A stretch of DNA of 64,000 bases from Deferrisoma camini S3R1 (GTDB lineage Bacteria > Desulfobacterota > Deferrisomatia > Deferrisomatales > Deferrisomataceae): contig NZ_JAFN01000001.1 in NCBI RefSeq assembly GCF_000526155.1, positions 1,947,014-2,011,013 on the forward strand, read 5' to 3'. Under the pieces are notes generated by a model. That model worked only from the letters and a program-made list of their open reading frames with translations. It was not told where the DNA came from and searched no databases. Shown here one piece after another: positions 1,743 to 62,880 of the stretch. Position numbers and translations under genes: made by a program. Each line of letters opens with the position of its first letter. Positions within the stretch are counted from its first letter, which is position 1.

Positions 1743-3146
1743 CTAAAGGGTGCGGCCGTAGTCGTCCTGGAGGCGCACGATGTCGTCCTCGCCCAGGTAG
1801 TCTCCGGTCTGGACCTCGATGATCTCCAGCAGCCCCTCGTCCGGGTTCTCGAGCCGGTGCTTCTCGCCCCTGGGGATGTGCACCGTCTGCCCCACGGTCA
1901 GGTCCAGCACCTCGTCGCCCCGGGTCACCCGGGCCGTGCCCCGCACCACCACCCACTGCTCGGCCCGGTGGTGGTGGAGCTGGAGGCTGAGGCGCTGACC
2001 CGGGTACACCGTGATCCGCTTCACCTTGTGGCCGTCCGCCTCCTCCAAGGTGGTGAAGGTGCCCCAGGGCCGGTGGACCGTGCGGTGGTGCACCGCCTCC
2101 TCCCGCCCCTGCCGCGCCAGGGCCTCGGCCACCCGGCGCACGTCCTGGCTCCGGTCCTTGGGGCAAACCAGCAGCGCATCGGCCGTGTCCACCACCACCG
2201 TGTCCGTCACCCCCACCAGCGCCACCACCTTGTCGCCCGCCCACACCAGGTTGCCCCGGCTGTCCTCGAGCAGGGGCAGCCCGTCCACCCGCACGGCGTT
2301 GCCCGCCTCGTCCCGGGCCAGCACATCCAGCAGGGCGGCGAAGCTCCCCAGGTCGGACCACCCGGGGTCCACCGGCAGCACCACGCCCCGCTCCGACCGC
2401 TCCATCACCGCGTAGTCGATGGAGATCTTGGGGATCCGGGCGTACCCGTCCGCCGGCAGATCCCCGCCCGCCTCCACCGCGTTCCGCAGGGCCTCGACCC
2501 CGGCCCACACGTCAGGGGCGTGGCGGGCCAGCTCCTCCAAAATGGTGCCGGCCCGGAAGGCGAACATGCCGGAGTTCCAGTAGTACCCCCCCTCGTCCAG
2601 GTACCGGCGGGCCGTCGCCAGGTCAGGCTTCTCCACGAACCGGGCCACCCTGCGGAACCCGTCGAAGCCCGGCAGGGGCTCGCCGGCCTGGATGTATCCG
2701 TAGCCGGTCTCGGGCCGCGATGGGGCGATGCCGAAGGTCACCAGGTTTCCGGCGGCCGCGGCCCCGGCCGCCCGCTCCAGGGCCGACCGGAACGCATCCT
2801 CGTCGCGAATGGCGTGGTCCGACGGAAGGACCAGGAGCACCGTGTCGGCCGGCGCCGCCAGGGCCGCCACCCCCACGGCCGGGGCGGTGTTCCGGCCCAC
2901 CGGCTCCAAGATCACCCGGCCGTGGGGATCGATGCCCAGGTCCCGAAGCTGGCGGTCCACGAGGTGGGCGACGTCCCGGGTCGCCACCACGCACACCTCG
3001 TCCCCCACCAGGGGCCGCACCCGCTCCACGGTCTGCTGGAACAGGCTCCGCTGCCCGAGCAGGGGGAGGAACTGCTTGGGAAACGCCTGGCGCGAGAGGG
3101 GCCACAGCCGGGTCCCGCTCCCGCCCGCGAGGATCACTGCGCGCAC
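1743..3146 (-). CDS. manC: mannose-1-phosphate guanylyltransferase / mannose-6-phosphate isomerase
   Basis: Bifunctional type II enzyme that makes GDP-mannose for surface polysaccharide, and probably also isomerises mannose-6-phosphate. The N-terminal nucleotidyltransferase domain begins with AVILAGGSGTRLWPLSR and FPKQFL, then has the LPSDH and FVEKPD motifs. The C-terminal cupin domain has QLHHHRAEQWVVVRGTARV and IPRGEKHRLENP with the metal-binding histidines. I chose the GTG at 3146 because AGGAGG sits 6 bases upstream. A GTG at 3161 would add five residues but overlaps that ribosome binding site. Length (467 residues) is normal for AlgA/ManC. The 5' leader runs straight into the composite repeat at 3165. 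Confidence 0.93.
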   Translation of the reverse strand: MRAVILAGGSGTRLWPLSRQAFPKQFLPLLGQRSLFQQTVERVRPLVGDEVCVVATRDVAHLVDRQLRDLGIDPHGRVILEPVGRNTAPAVGVAALAAPADTVLLVLPSDHAIRDEDAFRSALERAAGAAAAGNLVTFGIAPSRPETGYGYIQAGEPLPGFDGFRRVARFVEKPDLATARRYLDEGGYYWNSGMFAFRAGTILEELARHAPDVWAGVEALRNAVEAGGDLPADGYARIPKISIDYAVMERSERGVVLPVDPGWSDLGSFAALLDVLARDEAGNAVRVDGLPLLEDSRGNLVWAGDKVVALVGVTDTVVVDTADALLVCPKDRSQDVRRVAEALARQGREEAVHHRTVHRPWGTFTTLEEADGHKVKRITVYPGQRLSLQLHHHRAEQWVVVRGTARVTRGDEVLDLTVGQTVHIPRGEKHRLENPDEGLLEIIEVQTGDYLGEDDIVRLQDDYGRTL

Positions 3147-3164
3147 GGCTTTCCTCCTCACTTC

Positions 3165-3600
3165 GGTCGCTGGTCGTCAGTCGTTGGTCGTTGGTCTGGG
3201 CCTTCGGCCCGCTGGGCGGCTGGGCAGCTAGGCGGCCTGGCGGCTCCCGAGCCTCGACTCCAAGACCTCGGGGGGCATGGGGTCTGCTGGAGAGCCGGGC
3301 GCGGCTCCTTAGCTCGCCGCGCAGCGCCTCCGGCGCCCGGACCGCGAAATGGTACCCCTTGCACGCGCCCGTGATGAAACCAACTCCCGTGTCTTGTGCC
3401 TGCGCGGCGAATCTCAACGCTCGGCTTCGCGCCCGGCCGGAGGTAGACCCCATGCCCCTCACGCTACGCTCGGACCGAGACGCACACAAAGCCTGTACCC
3501 CGCAAACAGGCCGCCTCGGGGCCTACGGAGCTGAAATCTGTATCCTGAACCCCCTGCCCCGCCCCACGAGAACTCTCGGCTGGAACGCAACTTGGTATCA
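3165..3600. repeat. composite intergenic repeat: heptamers, UUCG hairpin, octamers, palindromic core
   Basis: This is a nearly complete example of the modular repeat. From left to right it has heptamers of the TGGTCGT type (3168-3198), the hairpin GGGCCTTCGGCCC (about 3198-3211), octamers of the GCTGGGCG/GCTAGGCG type (3211-3247), and the core palindrome (3271-3459). The outer arms of the core, GGCATGGGGTCTGC and GTAGACCCCATGCC, are inverted, and so are the inner CTCGCCGCGCAG and CTGCGCGGCGAAT. The right flank ends at 3598 in AACGCAACTTGGTAT, the inverse of the terminal repeat seen at 15560. It fills the manC-cheB gap and contains no supportable gene. Confidence 0.85.
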
Positions 3601-4838: not shown

Positions 4839-4877
4839 ACGTCCCAACGTCCCAACGTCCTAACGTCCTAACATCCC
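4839..4877. repeat. octamer array (AACGTCCC/AACGTCCT) in the cheR-cheB gap
   Basis: Five consecutive 8-base units, AACGTCCC, AACGTCCC, AACGTCCT, AACGTCCT and AACATCCC, with transitions only. It is the complement of the GGGACGTT units at 32758-32790. The cheR stop codon and its last few codons lie inside the array. Confidence 0.85.
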
Positions 4878-5711
4878 ACCGTCCTTCACGTAGAAGAACC
4901 AGCCGTTCACCTCCTCCACCCGGAACGGGGTGTCGAACCGCAGCAGGCTCTCCGTGAGCCCCAGCAGCAGCACGCCCCCGGGACGGAGGGCCCGGTGGAA
5001 CCGGTCCACCACCCTGGCGATGGTCTCCTCGGCGAAGTAGATCATCAGGTTCCGGCACAGGATCGCGTGCCACCGCCCCTCCCGACCGGCCTCGCCCGGC
5101 TCCAGGGCGTTGGCCCAGAAGAACCGCACCCGGCTCCGGGGGGGATCCTTCAGGCGCCACCCCCCCTCGGTGCGCTCGAACCAGCGGTCGCGCTTGTCGG
5201 GCGGGGTCATCCGGAGGGCCCCCTCCCCGTACACCGCGGCCCGGGCCTCCTGCAAGGCGTGCCGGTCGATGTCCGAGGCCCAGATCTCCACCCGGTCGGC
5301 GAGCCCCTCCTCCTCGGCCACGATGGCCAGGGTGTAGGGCTCGGCCCCCGTGGAGCAGGCGACCGACCAAACCCGGAACGGCTCCGGGTCCCGGTGCCGC
5401 TCCGGGATCCAGGTCCGCACCAGGGTCTCCAGGGGCCCGGGCTCGCGGAAGAAGTAGGTCTCGTTGATCGCGAGCTCCTCCACCGCCCGCTGGAGCTCCT
5501 CGCGGCCGTCCGGGTCGTACTTGAGATGGTAGTAGTAGTCGAGGAACCCCGGCAGCCCCAGGGCCGCCACGCGCCGGCCGACCCGCTCCGCGAACAGATC
5601 CCGTCGGCTCACATCGAACCGGAGCCCACAATACTCTTCGACGAGTCCGGCCAGCAGCTGAAACATCCGCTCGTCCAGGGCGAACGGCCCCGCCCCCCCA
5701 CGTGGGGTCAC
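4860..5711 (-). CDS. cheR: chemotaxis protein methyltransferase CheR
   Basis: SAM-dependent methyltransferase that methylates receptor glutamates. An N-terminal helical domain (FDVSRRDLFAERV, INETYFFRE) is followed by the SAM-binding fold with WSVACSTGAEPYTLAI, ASDID, CRNLMIYF and LRPGGVLLLGLTES. The GTG at 5711 overlaps the stop of the HEAT-repeat gene as GTGA, giving 283 residues, a normal size. The reading frame stays open far upstream but there it is the antisense of the HEAT gene. The last residues (GMLGR) and the TAG stop are encoded by the octamer array, so the native C-terminus has been set by the repeat. No TPR tail is present. Confidence 0.94.
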   Translation of the reverse strand: MTPRGGAGPFALDERMFQLLAGLVEEYCGLRFDVSRRDLFAERVGRRVAALGLPGFLDYYYHLKYDPDGREELQRAVEELAINETYFFREPGPLETLVRTWIPERHRDPEPFRVWSVACSTGAEPYTLAIVAEEEGLADRVEIWASDIDRHALQEARAAVYGEGALRMTPPDKRDRWFERTEGGWRLKDPPRSRVRFFWANALEPGEAGREGRWHAILCRNLMIYFAEETIARVVDRFHRALRPGGVLLLGLTESLLRFDTPFRVEEVNGWFFYVKDGGMLGR

Positions 5712-20844: not shown

Positions 20845-21150
20845 CGTGCGTTGGTCCGGGGCCATTGCCGGCGGCGGGGCATAGGGTCTGCTTCCGGCCG
20901 CGCGCGAAGCCGGGCATGAGATTCGCCGCGCAGGCACGGGGCACCAACGGTGGTTTCATGACCGTCCGGCCGGGGACCGAACGGTTTCACGGTGCGAGCG
21001 TTGGAGGCGCTGCGCGGCGAGCTAAGGAGCCGCACGCGGCTCTCCAGCAGACCCCATGCCCCCCGACTCCGGTGTCGAGACGAGCTTCCGACCAACGACC
21101 AACGACCAACGACCAACGACCGAAGCTACATGGAAGCGCGTCTGTTTACC
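20845..21150. repeat. composite repeat, inverted orientation, with four heptamers
   Basis: The core palindrome runs from about 20875 to 21062 in the opposite orientation to the 3271 copy. Its arms are GGCATAGGGTCTGC and GCAGACCCCATGCC. It is followed at 21090-21126 by heptamers GACCAAC three times, then GACCGAAGCTAC, the usual boundary of the heptamer module. The repeat and its flanks, including the TTTACCCGTCGGGTCAAC end near 21145-21162, fill the gap between the DUF4390 promoter region and lpxC. No supportable gene is present. Confidence 0.85.
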
Positions 21151-22451: not shown

Positions 22452-22766
22452 GGTAACTTCGGTCGTTGGTCATTAGTCGTTGGTCGGGGGCCTTCGGCCC
22501 GCTAGGCGGCCGGGCGGCTCTCGAATCGCGCCAAAGCTCGGGGGCATGGGGCCTGCTGGAGAGCCGGGCGCGGCCCCTTAGCTCGCCGCGCAGTGCCTCT
22601 GACGCTTGGACCACGAAATGGTTCGGATTCCACATAGTTGCCATGAAACCAGCTCTTCAGTCCCGTGCCTGCGCGGCGAATTTCATGCCCGGCTTCGCGC
22701 CCGGCCGGAGGCAGGTCCCTTGCCCCGCCCTCCGAGGTGACACGCCTAATTTGTCGCCGGGTTAAT
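22452..22766. repeat. composite repeat: heptamers, UUCG hairpin, octamers, palindromic core
   Basis: The boundary GTAACTTC is followed by heptamers of the GGTCGTT type (22461-22488), the GGGCCTTCGGCCCGC hairpin, one or two octamers (22501-22520), and the core (22541-22729), with the far end CGCCTAATTTGTCGCCGGGTTAA. It lies upstream of the lipoprotein gene. A GGCCCC-CGAA-GGGGCC hairpin ends at 22802, just before that gene's ribosome binding site. The remaining 22230-22451 stretch shows nothing I can support. Confidence 0.85.
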
Positions 22767-27899: not shown

Positions 27900-28290
27900 C
27901 GGGCCTTTGGCCCGCTGGGAGGCTAGGAGGCTGGGAAGCTAGGAGGCTTGAAAACCTCCGTGAACTCCATGTGTTCCAAGCGTGGCCACGCCTCTTCTGC
28001 ATCCCCTCACGGTGTCGGGGGGCATGGGGTCTGCTGGAGAGCCGCGTGCGGCCCCTTAGCTCGCCGCGCAGCGCCTCTGACGCTCGGACCGCGAAATGGC
28101 TCGGATTCCAGCGAGTTGTCATGAGACCAGCTCTTCGGTCCCGTGCCTGCGCGGCGAATCTCATGCCCGGCTTCGCGCGCGGCCGGAAGCAGGCCCCATG
28201 TCCCGCCGCCAAGGCCCCAGGATCTCTGAACGTTACCTTTCCTCGTTGCCGGGCCCCGCAGGGGCCTGACGAGGCTCCCAAACAACGCGA
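27900..28290. repeat. composite repeat: hairpin, octamers, palindromic core, GGCCCC hairpin
   Basis: GGGCCTTTGGCCCGC (about 27900) is followed by octamers of the TGGGAGGC/TAGGAGGC type (27914-27950), an A/T-richer spacer, the core (28017-28206) and a stem-loop CCTCGT...GGCCCCGCAGGGGCC...ACGAGG (28241-28276). The last bases GACTATTTCATCGCCGG are a boundary motif that encodes the final codons and stop of rqcH on the other strand. Confidence 0.85.
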
Positions 28291-32738: not shown

Positions 32739-32885
32739 CCTTCGGCCCGCCGGGGGGGGACGCTGGGACGTTAGGACGCTGGGAGGCTGGGAGGCCAAAA
32801 ACTCTTTTGCCTCCTGGCGGTTCAACCAGGTCTGCGCGTCACGGCATCACGGCCCGGGGGCATGGGGTCTGCCGACGGGCCGGCT
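32739..32885. repeat. partial composite repeat overlapping the cmk 3' end
   Basis: Units in order: the CGCCTTCGGCCCG hairpin, octamers GGGACGCT, GGGACGTT, AGGACGCT, GGGAGGCT (about 32758-32790), a CACGGCATCACGGC octamer pair and the left arm GGGGGCATGGGGTCTGCC (32856-32873). The rest of the core is missing. Confidence 0.75.
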
Positions 32886-34239: not shown

Positions 34240-34520
34240 TGTCTTCCATGGCAACTTCGGTCTACGGTCGTCGGTCGACGGTCTTCGGTCTCCTGGCCCC
34301 AGGGCAAGTGGCTCCCGCCAACCCGGGGGCGGGGGGCCTGTTGGAGCGCCGGGCGTGGCCGTATCAGGGGCCAGAATTCAGAAGACAGTAGACAGGAGAA
34401 CCGCCGAAGAGGTTTTCCACTGTCTTCTGTCTACCGACTCCTGATCCCTGAAATGCAGGCCCCCTGTCCCCGCGGGAAGGCGTCCGGTTACGCCGCACGT
34501 TGTAGGGCCCCACAGGGCCG
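34240..34520. repeat. composite repeat: two heptamer arrays around a partial core
   Basis: GGCAACTTC and heptamers of the GGTCGTC/GGTCTAC type (34252-34290), then a truncated core arm (GGGGGCCTGTTGGAGCGCCGGGCG). A second set of heptamers follows as an inverted pair (CAGAAGACAGTAGACAGGAG at 34378-34397 and CTGTCTTCTGTCTACCGACTCCTG at about 34418-34442). A GGGCCC-ACA-GGGCC hairpin closes it near 34505-34518. No gene is supported between engB and the small CDS at 34639. Confidence 0.75.
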
Positions 34521-39133: not shown

Positions 39134-39236
39134 CTTTTGGGCCTTCGGCCCGCTGGGAGGCTAGGAAGCTGGGAAGCTGGGAAGCCTTGGGGCCTGGTGG
39201 AGTGCCGCGCGCGGCCGGAGGTAGACCCCATGCCCC
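39134..39236. repeat. short composite repeat: hairpin, octamers, fused core ends
   Basis: TTTTGGGCCTTCGGCCCGC, then octamers of the TGGGAGGC/TAGGAAGC type (39150-39187), then the left arm joined directly to the right arm (GGGGCCTGGTGGAG to GGCCGGAGGTAGACCCCATGCCCC). The middle of the palindrome is deleted. It lies between convergent genes and could act as their terminator. Confidence 0.8.
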
Positions 39237-45655: not shown

Positions 45656-45776
45656 AGTAACTGCGGTCGTTGGTCGGGCCTTCGGCGCCACGGCATCACG
45701 GCATCACGGCTCGGGATCACGCGGTCTGTTGGAGAGCCGCGGCCGGTCGGTTCCCGTGGGCGGGCGGATCGGCTAT
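45656..45776. repeat. partial composite repeat between pepF and the DUF4911 gene
   Basis: The boundary AGTAACTGC and a short heptamer tract (GGTCGTTGGTCGG), then GGGCCTTCGGC, octamers CGGCATCA twice (about 45690-45706), then a truncated core arm (CGCGGTCTGTTGGAGAGCCG). It lies in a divergent promoter region. Confidence 0.7.
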
Positions 45777-48322: not shown

Positions 48323-48471
48323 TTGACCCGGCGACGAAATAGGCGCGTCACCTCGGTCTGTCCTCCGTCCCCTGAACTCTGTCCACCGATACGGCCGCGC
48401 CCGGCTCTCCGATGGGTCCCTTGCCCCTCGGATCTGGGAACGATAGCGGCTATTTCATCCGCCGGGTTGAC
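48323..48471. repeat. repeat copy with TTGACCCGGC-type ends
   Basis: The left end TTGACCCGGCGACGAAATAG begins two bases after the acyP stop. The right end GCTATTTCATCCGCCGGGTT (about 48451-48470) is its inverse with a few changes. Inside are degenerate heptamers (TCTGTCCTCCGTCCCC) and a core arm (CGCGCCCGGCTCTCCGATGGGTCCCTTGCCCC). This shows the second type of terminal repeat of the family. Confidence 0.75.
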
Positions 48472-48483
48472 AACAGGAGAACG

Positions 48484-49860
48484 ATGCGCAGCGCGTTCGT
48501 GATCGCGGCCCCCTGGTCGGGGTCGGGCAAGACCACGGTGACCCTGGCCGTGCTGGCGGCCCTGCAACGCCGGGGCCTGCGGGTGCAGGCGTTCAAGGTG
48601 GGGCCCGACTACATCGACCCGGCGCACCACGCCAGGATCACCGGCCGCCCCTCCCACAACCTGGACACCTGGATGATCCCCAGGGCCGTGAACCGCCGGC
48701 TGTTCCACGCCTCGGCAGCCGATGCGGACGTGGCCGTGGTGGAGGGGGTGATGGGCCTGTTCGACGGGGTGGACGGGACCCGGCCCGAGGGCTCCACGGC
48801 CCACCTCGCCCGGACGATTCGGCTGCCCGTGGTGCTGGTGGTGGACGCCCGGTCCATGGCCCGCAGCGCGGCGGCCCTCGTGCAGGGGTTCGCCTCGTTC
48901 ACGCCCCGGGTGCCCATCACCGGCGTGGTCTGGAACCGGGTGGGCAGCCCCACCCACCGACGGATCCTGGACGAGGCGCTGGCCGCCGCGGGGCTGCCCC
49001 CCGCGTTGGGGGCGCTGCCCCCGGAACCGGGGCTGGCCCTGCCCGAGCGGCACCTGGGGCTGGTCACCCCGGAGGACGCGGCCCTGCCCCCCGCGTGGGA
49101 GGACCGCCTGGCGGCGTGGATCGAGGACCACCTGGACCTGGACCGGCTCCTCGAGCGCACCCCGCCCCCCCCTCCTCCCCGGCTGCCCGTGCCCCGGCGC
49201 CGGGCGGGGACGCGCACCGTGGCCGTGGCGCGGGACGCGGCGTTCTGCTTCTACTACGACGAGAACCTGAGGCTGCTCGAGCGGGCCGGGGCCCGGATCG
49301 TCCGGTTCTCGCCGCTGGCCGGCGACGGTGTGCCGCCCGACGCGGACGCGGTGTACTTGGGCGGAGGCTACCCCGAGGTGCACGCAGAGCGGCTGGCGGC
49401 CAACCAGGCCTTCCTGGACGGGCTGCGGGGGTTCCACTCCCAGGGCCGCCCCATCTACGCCGAGTGCGGAGGGTTCATGGTGCTGTGCCGGTCTCTGGAG
49501 ACTCCCCGAGGGGGGCGGGTGCCCATGGCCGGGATCTTTCCGGCCGAGGCCCGGATGCGCTCCGGCCGGTTCCATCTGGGCTACCGCGAGGTGGTGGTGC
49601 AGGGGGTGGCCGGCATGGACGGGCTCACGGCCCGGGGTCACGAGTTCCACTACTCGGAACTGGTGGCCCCACCCCAAGGGGTGGAGACGGTGTACCGGGT
49701 GCGCAACGCCCGGGGCGAGGAGCTCGGTCGGGAGGGGTACCGGTCGGGCGCTGCCCTGGCCGGGTACATTCACCTGCACTTCGCCTCGTGCCCCGATCTG
49801 CCGCTTCGGTGGCTCGGGCTGTCGGGGCCCAGGCCCTGCCGGGCAGAGACCAGAAACTAG
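48484..49860 (+). CDS. cbiA: cobyrinate a,c-diamide synthase
   Basis: 458 residues, glutamine-dependent amidation of cobyrinate at a and c side chains. N-terminal P-loop APWSGSGKTTVTLAVL with KVGPDYIDPAHH and VVEGVMGLFDGVDG. C-terminal amidotransferase with YLGGGYPEVHAERLAAN, nucleophile Cys in YAECGGFMVLC and RGHEFHYSEL. ATG at 48484 with GGAGAACG upstream. The last residues (RAETRN) and the TAG stop are read from a heptamer array. Confidence 0.95.
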   Translation: MRSAFVIAAPWSGSGKTTVTLAVLAALQRRGLRVQAFKVGPDYIDPAHHARITGRPSHNLDTWMIPRAVNRRLFHASAADADVAVVEGVMGLFDGVDGTRPEGSTAHLARTIRLPVVLVVDARSMARSAAALVQGFASFTPRVPITGVVWNRVGSPTHRRILDEALAAAGLPPALGALPPEPGLALPERHLGLVTPEDAALPPAWEDRLAAWIEDHLDLDRLLERTPPPPPPRLPVPRRRAGTRTVAVARDAAFCFYYDENLRLLERAGARIVRFSPLAGDGVPPDADAVYLGGGYPEVHAERLAANQAFLDGLRGFHSQGRPIYAECGGFMVLCRSLETPRGGRVPMAGIFPAEARMRSGRFHLGYREVVVQGVAGMDGLTARGHEFHYSELVAPPQGVETVYRVRNARGEELGREGYRSGAALAGYIHLHFASCPDLPLRWLGLSGPRPCRAETRN

Positions 49861-49990
49861 AGACTAGACCATGCCCCCGATATTTGGCGGGTTCGAGAGC
49901 CGCCTGGCTAGTGTCATGGTTCGCAAGTTCGTGCAGTTCCGAGGGGGTGGGGCTGAGGGCCCCTCCGTGCAGGGAGCGGTAACGCCCGTT
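49846..49990. repeat. heptamer array and half copy of the second repeat family
   Basis: AGAGACC, AGAAACT, AGAGACT, AGACC (49846-49870), then from 49908 CTAGTGTCATGGTTCGC followed by GGGGGTGGGGCTGAGGGCCCCTCC, one arm of the element at 47524. A CCGTTTATCCGCCGG boundary follows at about 49986-50000. Confidence 0.7.
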
Positions 49991-61061: not shown

Positions 61062-61904
61062 ATGCGGGCCATGCGGACCGGCCTCGTGTTGGGCCTGATC
61101 CTGGCCGGGGCCAACGCGGCCGGGGCTGCGCCGCCGGACCTGGCGGAGGGGCGTTACCCCTATCTCGCGCCGAGCGGGGGGGCCACCCCCCTGGTGGCCC
61201 GGTGGGCGGGGCTGGCCCGGGCCATGCCCGACTGGAAGGACAAGGCCAAGGCGGCCCACTACCGGTTCCCGGCGGACAAGCCGGGTCGCCGGTGTGATCA
61301 GCCAAAGTGCCACCCGGGGTTTCGGGACGCCTACGTCCAGCGGCTCCTGGCCCTCCCCGAGGGGTCTTCCCGCCAGAACGCCCGGCAGGGCCGGCTGGGG
61401 CTCGCCCGATGCGGCGACTGCCACACCTGGGATCGGATCCGGGAGCGGACCGCCGCGTGCCGGCTCCACTTCGACCAGCCCGACCGGGTCGAGTGCACCG
61501 CCTGTCACCTGGAGGGGCCGAAGGTCCTGGAGCCCCGTGGCGACAAGAAGACCGTCTCGGTCCGAGGCGCAGCCCCGCTGGGGGCCTGGCCCACCCACCG
61601 GCTCACCCGGGACGAGAAGGCGATCCCCTGCGACCAGACGTGTCACGTGCCCCAAAACCCCTTTGGGGTGGAGCAGGTGTGCAACGACTGCCACGGAGAG
61701 GGCAAGCTCCGGGTGGCCCGCTTGGCCGCACCAGGGGTGCTGGTGCACGCCACCGACCCGAAGAGCCCGTGGCCCCGCCTCACCCACCGGTTCTTCCTGT
61801 GGCTCACCACCGGCGTGAGCGGGGCCCTTCTGGCCTACATCCTCCTCGACCTGGTGCGTTCCCGGAAGCATCCTCAGGCCCCTGCGGGGCCGTCTAGAGG
61901 CTAG
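61062..61904 (+). CDS. five-haem c-type cytochrome with C-terminal membrane anchor
   Basis: 280 residues. Signal peptide (MRTGLVLGLILAGANAAGA), then five haem-binding motifs: CX4CH at residues 78-84 (CDQPKCH), CX2CH at 117-121 (CGDCH) and 145-149 (CTACH), CX3CH at 190-195 (CDQTCH) and CX2CH at 207-211 (CNDCH). A transmembrane helix (FFLWLTTGVSGALLAYILLDLV, about 244-265) anchors the C-terminus. It lies between fdhB and the cytochrome b, so it probably carries electrons within this complex. Spaced motifs of this type need a suitable lyase. The final PSRG and stop come from the repeat. Confidence 0.88.
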   Translation: MRAMRTGLVLGLILAGANAAGAAPPDLAEGRYPYLAPSGGATPLVARWAGLARAMPDWKDKAKAAHYRFPADKPGRRCDQPKCHPGFRDAYVQRLLALPEGSSRQNARQGRLGLARCGDCHTWDRIRERTAACRLHFDQPDRVECTACHLEGPKVLEPRGDKKTVSVRGAAPLGAWPTHRLTRDEKAIPCDQTCHVPQNPFGVEQVCNDCHGEGKLRVARLAAPGVLVHATDPKSPWPRLTHRFFLWLTTGVSGALLAYILLDLVRSRKHPQAPAGPSRG

Positions 61905-62106
61905 AAACTAGAGACTAGAAACTAGAGAAATCTTGACGGCCTCGGACCGTGTGGTGGAGGCGAAGAGGCATGAAGGTTCCTAGAACGTACGGGAATCCGC
62001 GAGGTTTTCAAGCCTTCTAGCCTCTTAGCTTTCCAGCCTTCAAGCGGGCCGAAGGCCCCAGACCGACGACCGTTGACCGTAGACCGACGACCGAAGTTAC
62101 TGGGAA
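61868..62106. repeat. composite repeat inside the fdh operon
   Basis: GGCCCCTGCGGGGCC hairpin (61878-61892), heptamers CTAGAGG, CTAGAAA, CTAGAGA repeated (61894-61926), a spacer, octamers (CTTCTAGCCTCTTAGCTTTCCAGC, about 62015-62043), the inverse UUCG hairpin GCGGGCCGAAGGCCCC, then heptamers GACCGACGACCGTTGACCGTAGACCG ending at the boundary GAAGTTACTGGGAAGG. No core. It separates the cytochrome c from the cytochrome b gene of one operon. Confidence 0.85.
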
Positions 62107-62118
62107 GGAGATGAGGGG

Positions 62119-62787
62119 ATGAACAGCCGGGAAGTCCAGCGGTTCCCCCCAGGGTTCGTGTGGCAGCACGGGCTGCTCATCGTCACCTTCACTCTGCTCG
62201 CGGTGACCGGCATGCCCCTCAAGTGGCACTGGTGGGGGGTGATCCGGGTCATGGGAGGGTACGAGGTGGTCCGGTGGATCCACCGGTTCCTCGGAGCCGT
62301 GATGCTGGCCCAGGGTGTGGTCCACGTGGTCCATGCGGCGGTCCGCCAGGTGCGGGTGGGCCACCCCGGCGGCCTGTGGCCGAGCCTTCGGGACGTGCAC
62401 GATCTCCTCCACGACGTCCGGTTCCTGCTGGGCCGGGAGCCCGAGCGGGCCCGCTACCCCCGGTACTCGTACATCAACAAGTTCGACTACTGGGGTGCGT
62501 TCTGGGGGGTGGCGATCATGGCCGGGTCGGGCCTGGTGCTGTGGTTCCCCCGATCCTTCTCGGACACCGTCATCCACATGAGCCACATCGCCCACACCGA
62601 CGAGGCCCTGCTGGCGGTGATCGCCATCTTCATCTGGCACCTGTACCACGTGCACACCTCCCACGGGCGGCCCCGCCTCAACCGGGTGTGGCTCACCGGC
62701 CGCATCCCGCTGGAGGATCTCAAGAGCGAGCACCCCGAGGAGTACGAGCAGCTCGTCCGAAACAGCCGCCTCGGGGAGCCCGGCTGA
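62119..62787 (+). CDS. fdhC: formate dehydrogenase cytochrome b subunit
   Basis: 222 residues, FdnI-like with four membrane helices: residues about 17-37 (HGLLIVTFTLLAVTGMPLKW), 55-75 (IHRFLGAVMLAQGVVHVVHA), 125-145 (YWGAFWGVAIMAGSGLVLWF) and 160-185 (ALLAVIAIFIWHLYHVH). Haem-ligand histidines lie in the first, second and fourth. It connects the complex to the quinone pool. GGAGATGAGG precedes the ATG, following a repeat. Confidence 0.9.
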   Translation: MNSREVQRFPPGFVWQHGLLIVTFTLLAVTGMPLKWHWWGVIRVMGGYEVVRWIHRFLGAVMLAQGVVHVVHAAVRQVRVGHPGGLWPSLRDVHDLLHDVRFLLGREPERARYPRYSYINKFDYWGAFWGVAIMAGSGLVLWFPRSFSDTVIHMSHIAHTDEALLAVIAIFIWHLYHVHTSHGRPRLNRVWLTGRIPLEDLKSEHPEEYEQLVRNSRLGEPG

Positions 62788-62796
62788 CCCATGCCA

Positions 62797-62880
62797 GCTT
62801 TCCTCGTCCCATGCGGGCCGAAGCCCCCCACCAGACCGGCGACCGTAGACCGATGACCGGAGACCGAAGCTACGCGGAAG
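62797..62880. repeat. heptamer array before the last gene
   Basis: CATGCGGGCCGAAGCCCCCCACC (degenerate hairpin) followed by heptamers GACCGGC, GACCGTA, GACCGAT, GACCGGA, GACCGAA and the boundary GAAGCTAC at about 62834-62872. An in-frame ATG for the next gene falls inside the array. Confidence 0.8.

Follow-up and report, generated by a model that had tools for sequence, protein, structure and literature searches.

Cyanobacteria, Beggiatoaceae and Geobacter are known to carry heptamer arrays, for which no function has been settled. Cyanobacterial STRR are tandem degenerate heptamers, dispersed and intergenic, and we know of no shared boundary or oriented cassette in them. BOX elements are modular and repeat longer modules, not 7- or 8-mers, and in retroelement tails a dispersed element is terminated by short-period arrays. 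We take Geobacter metallireducens to belong to the same phylum as the genome studied here. The main text of the published account of that species describes 49 GGGACCG elements (Gmet_H4) of four tandem heptamers, partly within genes, and paired 'global regulator binding sites' of classes 1–3, with Gmet_H4 and the classes comprising 49, 48, 47 and 16 sequences (PMC2700814). The class 3 sites hold five MTYCTGA heptamers, paired on opposite strands, and were read there as regulator-binding (PMC2700814). In Beggiatoaceae, TAACTGA heptamers lie immediately before start codons in the forward direction, with no common gene function; related heptamers were stated to be rare there, and a translational role was proposed (PMC4679880). 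Pneumococcal BOX repeats are non-coding and interspersed with extensive secondary structure, and BOX and RUP were judged parasitic (PMC3049150).

The window, the whole 64,000-nucleotide stretch that we analysed (G000:C1:1947014-2011013, in a genome of 4.24 Mb on a single contig; 72% G+C across the window), carries arrays of a kind already known from G. metallireducens and Beggiatoaceae. Its array sites, with heptamer positions in brackets, are as follows.

61878..62118, plus strand: complete intergenic cassette, filling the space between two neighbouring genes
61894..61928, plus strand: ACTAGAR array that overlaps the upstream gene at its 3′ end, with the inverted repeat GGCCCCTGCGGGGCC ahead of it
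62006..62045, minus strand: octamer array of the GCTRGRAR family, reading TTCYAGCY on the plus strand
62046..62058, plus strand: hairpin GGGCCGAAGGCCC in heptamer register, at the octamer–heptamer joint
62049..62101 (62049-62096), plus strand: GACC heptamers GGCCGAA, GGCCCCA, GACCGAC, GACCGTT, GACCGTA, GACCGAC and GACCGAA with boundary GAAGTTAC, flush with the Shine-Dalgarno region of a gene whose start is at 62119
62833..62874 (62833-62869), plus strand: GACC array with boundary GAAGCTAC
3155..3197 (3161-3197), minus strand: GACC array with gene-proximal end GACCGAAGTGAGGAGG, directly upstream of the minus-strand gene 1743-3146 (NTP-transferase and mannose-6-phosphate isomerase domains)
3211..3245, plus strand: octamer array GCTRGGCR, joined via GGGCCTTCGGCCC to the array at 3155-3197
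21089..21130 (21089-21125), plus strand: GACC array (four GACCAAC, then GACCGAA) with boundary GAAGCTAC and a CTCCGATGTCGAGACGAGCTTTC-type module ahead of it
22453..22497 (22457-22497), minus strand: GACC array with hairpin; plus-strand boundary GTAACTTC
34250..34291 (34255-34291), minus strand: GACC array with plus-strand boundary GCAACTTC, ending a long imperfect inverted-repeat module
34364..34399, minus strand: YTTCTGW array, first arm of an inverted pair
34416..34454, plus strand: YTTCTGW array, second arm of the same pair
45658..45680, minus strand: minimal GACC array of about two units (GGTCGTTGGTCGGGCC) beside GTAACTGC, under the scan threshold
48357..48389, plus strand: degenerate array of the YTTCTGW family
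49845..49868, plus strand: ACTAGAR array at the 3′ end of a gene
47513: weak ACTAGAR array
4840..4885, minus strand: octamer array, reading ACGTCCYA on the plus strand
27914..27953, plus strand: octamer array GCTRGGAG
32757..32801, plus strand: octamer array GGGACGCT
39152..39185, plus strand: octamer array GCTGGGAA
47968..48007, minus strand: octamer array beside GGGCCGAAGACCC and GAAGTCAC, upstream of a gene

Eleven of the twelve coordinates named in a first-pass annotation of the window bear an array of the kind described there; at the twelfth, 45660, about two units fall below our threshold. The arrays are real and belong to three heptamer families (GACCGNN, ACTAGAR and YTTCTGW), and octamers, which are as frequent as heptamers, had been missed, for example at 4840, 27914, 32757, 39152, 47968 and 62006. 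The YTTCTGW pair lies centrally in a long imperfect inverted-repeat module (34293-34520) joined to the GACC array at 34255, and a short CACGGCAT octamer array at 45689-45710 is the sole clear case of that unit in our sample. No Rfam family matched above its gathering score in the window, and identity with a known RNA family was therefore dropped.

To gauge abundance we used a sample of 2.06 Mb (49% of the genome), made up of 100 stretches of 20 kb along the chromosome together with the window. A period scan gave 104 hits at period 7 and 111 at period 8, compared to 2 and 1, respectively, in a single Markov shuffle. The tandem excess was confined to periods 7, 8 and their multiples, with the remaining periods at 14 hits or fewer; an N-masked stretch scores once in every period class. 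Scans with iterated position matrices found 657 non-overlapping arrays, where the first-pass annotation had counted about ten sites, and shuffled sequence yielded 0–3 arrays per family. They comprise five heptamer families, GACCGNN (185 arrays), YTTCTGW (104, median 38 bp or about five units), ACTAGAR (59), GTGACGG (36) and CGTRAAT (32), and one octamer group (241), in which GCTRGRAR, GYTRGGAC and GCTRGGCR collapse into one matrix. In the GACC unit G is rare at the two variable positions, and the YTTCTGW matrix reads C/A, T/C, T/C, C, T, G, T/A. Just 8 of the 657 arrays lie within genes. Genome-wide, the GACCGNN triple pattern GACCGNNGACCGNNGACC had 354 exact matches and its reversed control none; GACCGNNGACCGAAGYTAC, with one mismatch permitted, had 166 compared to 0. 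By extrapolation, the whole genome probably holds well over a thousand arrays. Thus, the intergenic arrays are real and far commoner than was first seen, and the two scans bear out their description as degenerate, STRR-like repeats of period 7 present genome-wide in excess.

The arrays are parts of an ordered cassette. Octamers are followed by the hairpin GGGCCGAAGGCCC, the GACC heptamers and GAAGTTAC, with the GACC segment at the gene-proximal end; the directional adjacencies number 86 for octamer to hairpin, 95 for hairpin to GACC array and 115 for GACC array to gene start. Upstream of GACC arrays stand either the octamers and the hairpin, which keeps the heptamer register, or one of two other fixed modules. 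The terminal sequence GACCGAAGTTAC is exact in 49 of the 185 GACC arrays, and one-letter variants are frequent. A shared boundary, GAAGYTAC, had been noticed at the outset; it holds for the GACC family and only there, not as one boundary for all families. Among the 104 YTTCTGW arrays there are 43 inverted adjacent pairs, with gaps of 12–60 bp among those listed. The order of units was identical between different sites in 23 pairs, compared to a mean of 1.6 and a maximum of 9 after shuffling. As this exceeds expectation, entire arrays have been copied from site to site.

GACC arrays also have a consistent relation to genes, which, like the cassette, had no place in the first-pass annotation. 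The gene calls came from a home-made, simple hexamer-based caller and not from an annotation. By these calls the downstream gene is co-directional with the array in 148 of 174 cases (85%), and the boundary (GTTAC) most often stands 12–18 nt from the start codon, with a gene-specific Shine-Dalgarno sequence directly after it. Seventy-four of the 185 arrays are flush with a gene, that is, within 24 nt of its start codon, whereas 300 random placements gave 12.3 on average and never more than 22; roughly 60% of the GACC arrays are not flush. ACTAGAR arrays tend to come after stop codons, and in 39 of 56 cases the gene upstream runs in the same direction. The genes behind flush arrays are real, since known domains were found in 19 of the 20 checked. 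Pfam domains downstream include phosphoglycerate kinase, DnaJ, LpxD, GidA, RtcB, NTP transferase with mannose-6-phosphate isomerase, multihaem cytochrome and histidine kinase, and the domain check found no function shared among the 20 genes. Because GACC arrays point at gene starts and often end at the ribosome-binding site, a possible role in protein synthesis is directly testable.

Three other accounts of this placement were considered. A role in transcription termination was set aside, as 41 GACC arrays stand in divergent regions, into which no upstream gene reads. A promoter reading of the array at 62063, TTGACC and GTTACT spaced by 17 nt as judged by eye, was dropped because the start would fall at or within the Shine-Dalgarno region. 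Replichore-directed placement was rejected as well: array strand loosely follows GC skew, as genes usually do, but co-direction with genes (85%) is stronger.

How the arrays change was followed in a sister species (G001; sample of about 0.88 Mb, alignment identity 87%). In 162 orthologous intergenic regions, 29 of the 49 clean indels shorter than 60 bp measured 7, 8, 14, 16, 21 or 24 bp. These sizes correspond to whole units, so arrays gain and lose entire units, and the suggestion that unit number varies between related genomes holds. Bigger differences include modules of about 180–390 bp, and in several cases the insertion or deletion falls at an array boundary. In orthologous regions, GACC arrays were present in both species in 27 cases and in one species only in 14 of 41; as 30 of the 70 G001 loci had been picked for carrying the boundary, these counts are biased. 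For 5 of 19 flush arrays, G001 had no array near the same start. As arrays can be missing from one species in this way, the GACC array is non-essential.

Within the arrays, letters change at different rates. The GACC core diverged at 20 of 636 positions (3.1%), compared to 40 of 489 (8.2%) for the variable letters, a gap inflated by misaligned units, and to 7.6% for other intergenic DNA (P = 4e-6 for the core). Octamer and YTTCTGW cores show the same slow-core pattern. Part of this conservation could stem from homogenisation of units and not from selection.

Folding was assessed by prediction. The cassette at 61878-62118 is predicted to fold better as RNA than shuffled sequence (z = -3.95). 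The sense strand of GACC arrays, in contrast, is predicted to be less structured than its shuffles (-0.115 compared to -0.175 kcal/mol per nt). The predicted unpaired value of the Shine-Dalgarno and start region was 0.498 for genes with a flush array and 0.440 for other genes (P = 1e-4), and that of the region from -50 to -20 was 0.520 compared to 0.422 (P = 6e-9); shuffled upstream sequence gave 0.464. These differences are modest and depend on predicted folds and home-made gene calls, and they would fit an open 5′ leader.

How does this system relate to those already described? The first-pass annotation knew of no description in this lineage; the G. metallireducens elements, both GGGACCG and MTYCTGA, had in fact been published (PMC2700814). 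That genome, as far as its main text describes it, resembles ours in having degenerate tandem heptamers and octamers (PMC2700814). GGGACCG is the GACCGNN core with NN = GG, but G is rare at those positions in our arrays. For class 3, our YTTCTGW matrix agrees with the MTYCTGA consensus, and the opposite-strand pairing is matched by the 43 inverted pairs. A boundary, orientation to the start codon, a cassette grammar and variation in unit number, all present here, are not described in the main text of that account (PMC2700814). The Beggiatoaceae repeats share their forward position upstream of start codons with our GACC arrays (74/185 flush, 148/174 co-directional). Their TAACTGA unit differs from the matrices of all our families, however, and it overlaps the expected ribosome-binding site, whereas GACC arrays end before it; octamers, a hairpin and a cassette, all found here, do not figure in the portion of the report considered (PMC4679880). 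As in STRR, tandem heptamers occur here above expectation, dispersed and intergenic, with a unit number that varies between related genomes, but the unit sequences differ. BOX elements and our arrays are both non-coding, interspersed and modular, with no evident sequence relation. As far as we have found, what is new is the number of families and arrays, the boundary-fixed oriented cassette that joins octamers to heptamers, the whole-unit change between sister species and the divergence of core versus variable letters.

Beyond the sister species, unit spectra were assessed by pattern counts and 20 short loci. The GACCGNN triple pattern occurred 317 and 144 times in two congeners and at most 12 times in other relatives, and its reversed control hardly at all; a scan of species genomes for the boundary pattern returned loci from two MAGs only. 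Among 198 genomes of the phylum, exact three-unit patterns turned up in 10 genomes (CGTRAAT), 6 (octamer), 5 (ACTAGAR) and 27 (YTTCTGW), with controls near zero save for a few genomes in the YTTCTGW search. The non-GACC patterns thus occur in a few distant genera and are absent from most. As all patterns were derived from our own genome, the counts speak to the recurrence of the same units and leave the number of other units there unaddressed. By eye, the flanks of the distant loci seem unrelated, except in a genome of the same family (G003), where octamers adjoin a GACC array with an AACTTC boundary (L198). Loci from other genera of the phylum (L181-L200) show the same heptamer and octamer units in unrelated genomes of 40–70% G+C. 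In one array (L182) the unit switches from ATTCACG to ACTCACG at a constant period of 7, and another locus (L192) has CAGAAGT, then CAAGAAG and TCTTGCC.

We favour, with a probability of about 0.5, a reading in which these are dispersed modular repeats that vary by slippage, whose GACC segment has been turned into an open 5′ leader with its core under selection. The intergenic spaces would be filled by a repeat family found across the genus, modular, dispersed and non-coding, with the arrays as its tandem, length-variable segments. Cassettes would presumably move and spread by copying, hairpin and inverted-repeat modules would be gained and lost between arrays, and the arrays would lengthen or shorten in steps of whole units, one or several at a time, with slipped-strand mispairing as the simplest mechanism. 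The GACC segment would be the gene-proximal end of the cassette along the direction of transcription, ending at the Shine-Dalgarno region in about 40% of cases, and a flush array would make a poorly structured stretch of 5′ untranslated leader, if it is carried in the transcript as we suppose. Selection may keep the GACC core, the likeliest reason being that an unpaired track with GACC every 7 nt is useful to, or is read by, ribosomes or an RNA-binding protein. A bolder version seems to us unlikely: that the GACC arrays form a genome-wide adjustable 5′ leader, in which the 7-nt spacing of GACC is read by the ribosome or by a single-strand RNA-binding protein, unit number tunes the translation of well over 100 unrelated genes and the modular repeat brings the leader precisely to Shine-Dalgarno sites. 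Because the arrays follow a clear grammar, point at gene starts, are constrained in their cores and change by whole units, their role and that of their 7- or 8-nt period can be tested.

The chief rival to the leader reading is that the cassettes are purely parasitic or neutral, spreading and slipping with no gain for the host, the flush position being merely the last tolerated point of insertion. This is plausible, if somewhat doubtful. The modules are dispersed and multi-copy, differ in presence between sister species and precede genes of no one functional class, and the pneumococcal BOX and RUP repeats were judged parasitic (PMC3049150). However, many upstream positions should be equally tolerated, so the sharp peak at 12–18 nt is unexpected on this account; orientation and flush position go beyond random placement, and the GACC core has diverged less than the rest of the intergenic DNA. 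Quite unlikely, in our view, is a reading in which a global regulator or an IHF/HU-like nucleoid protein binds the arrays as DNA, as the main text of the G. metallireducens account proposes for its pairs. In its favour, the 43 inverted YTTCTGW pairs resemble class 3 sites (PMC2700814) and the cores are conserved. Against this, a 7-bp period runs out of phase with the helix, and GACC arrays are strictly strand-oriented and placed where transcription is expected.

Two further explanations concern how the arrays arose. A telomerase-like or retroelement reverse transcriptase might have synthesised them, either as DRT10 does or as tails of SINE-like elements, and short-period arrays ending a dispersed element do recall retroelement tails. 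The reverse transcriptase domain PF00078, however, is absent from the 98%-complete genome and was detected in three control genomes, and unit order is inherited between sites, not newly made. DRT10 does synthesise tandem-repeat DNA, but its repeats are 9 nt long (PMC12632851). With no such domain, this origin is largely refuted for the present genome and we consider it very improbable. That the arrays are a compositional artefact or coincidental low-complexity sequence might be suspected at 72% G+C with many short tandem matches; it has practically no likelihood and is refuted by the controls (354 vs 0, 166 vs 0, 104 and 111 vs 1–2) and by the nearly exclusive intergenic location.

Several other mobile or repeated sequences were noted. 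The genome has four copies of an IS200-type Y1 transposase, all scoring 151.9 bits (G000:C1:718733, 738564, 789121 and 1513274), and several longer, more distant Y1 proteins. A REP/RAYT origin was rejected, as Y1 transposases are present but arrays do not generally flank them; a single array, of GACC type, stood within 1.5 kb of the four loci inspected, some 200 bp beyond the end of one gene. Octamer or GACC arrays often have immediately upstream of them a dispersed module of about 185 bp, whose inverted ends are GGGCATGGGGCCTGC and GCAGACCCCATGCCC (for example at G000:C1:295465, 611515, 694610 and 4057959). By the criteria used for MITEs, no target duplication was seen for the arrays themselves and none was established for the 185-bp module. 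A 170-bp repeat with ends CCCGCATTATTCATGA (G000:C1 2121137, 2172320, 2898194 and 3004748) has both terminal inverted repeats and a target duplication, CTAG being duplicated at both ends; the CTAG surroundings are octamer-like in at least two of the four copies, and one copy is missing from G001. CTAG itself is avoided about five-fold in the 2.06-Mb sample (1095 compared to 5533 expected), yet the arrays, at 1.2% of the sequence, hold half of all CTAG (551).
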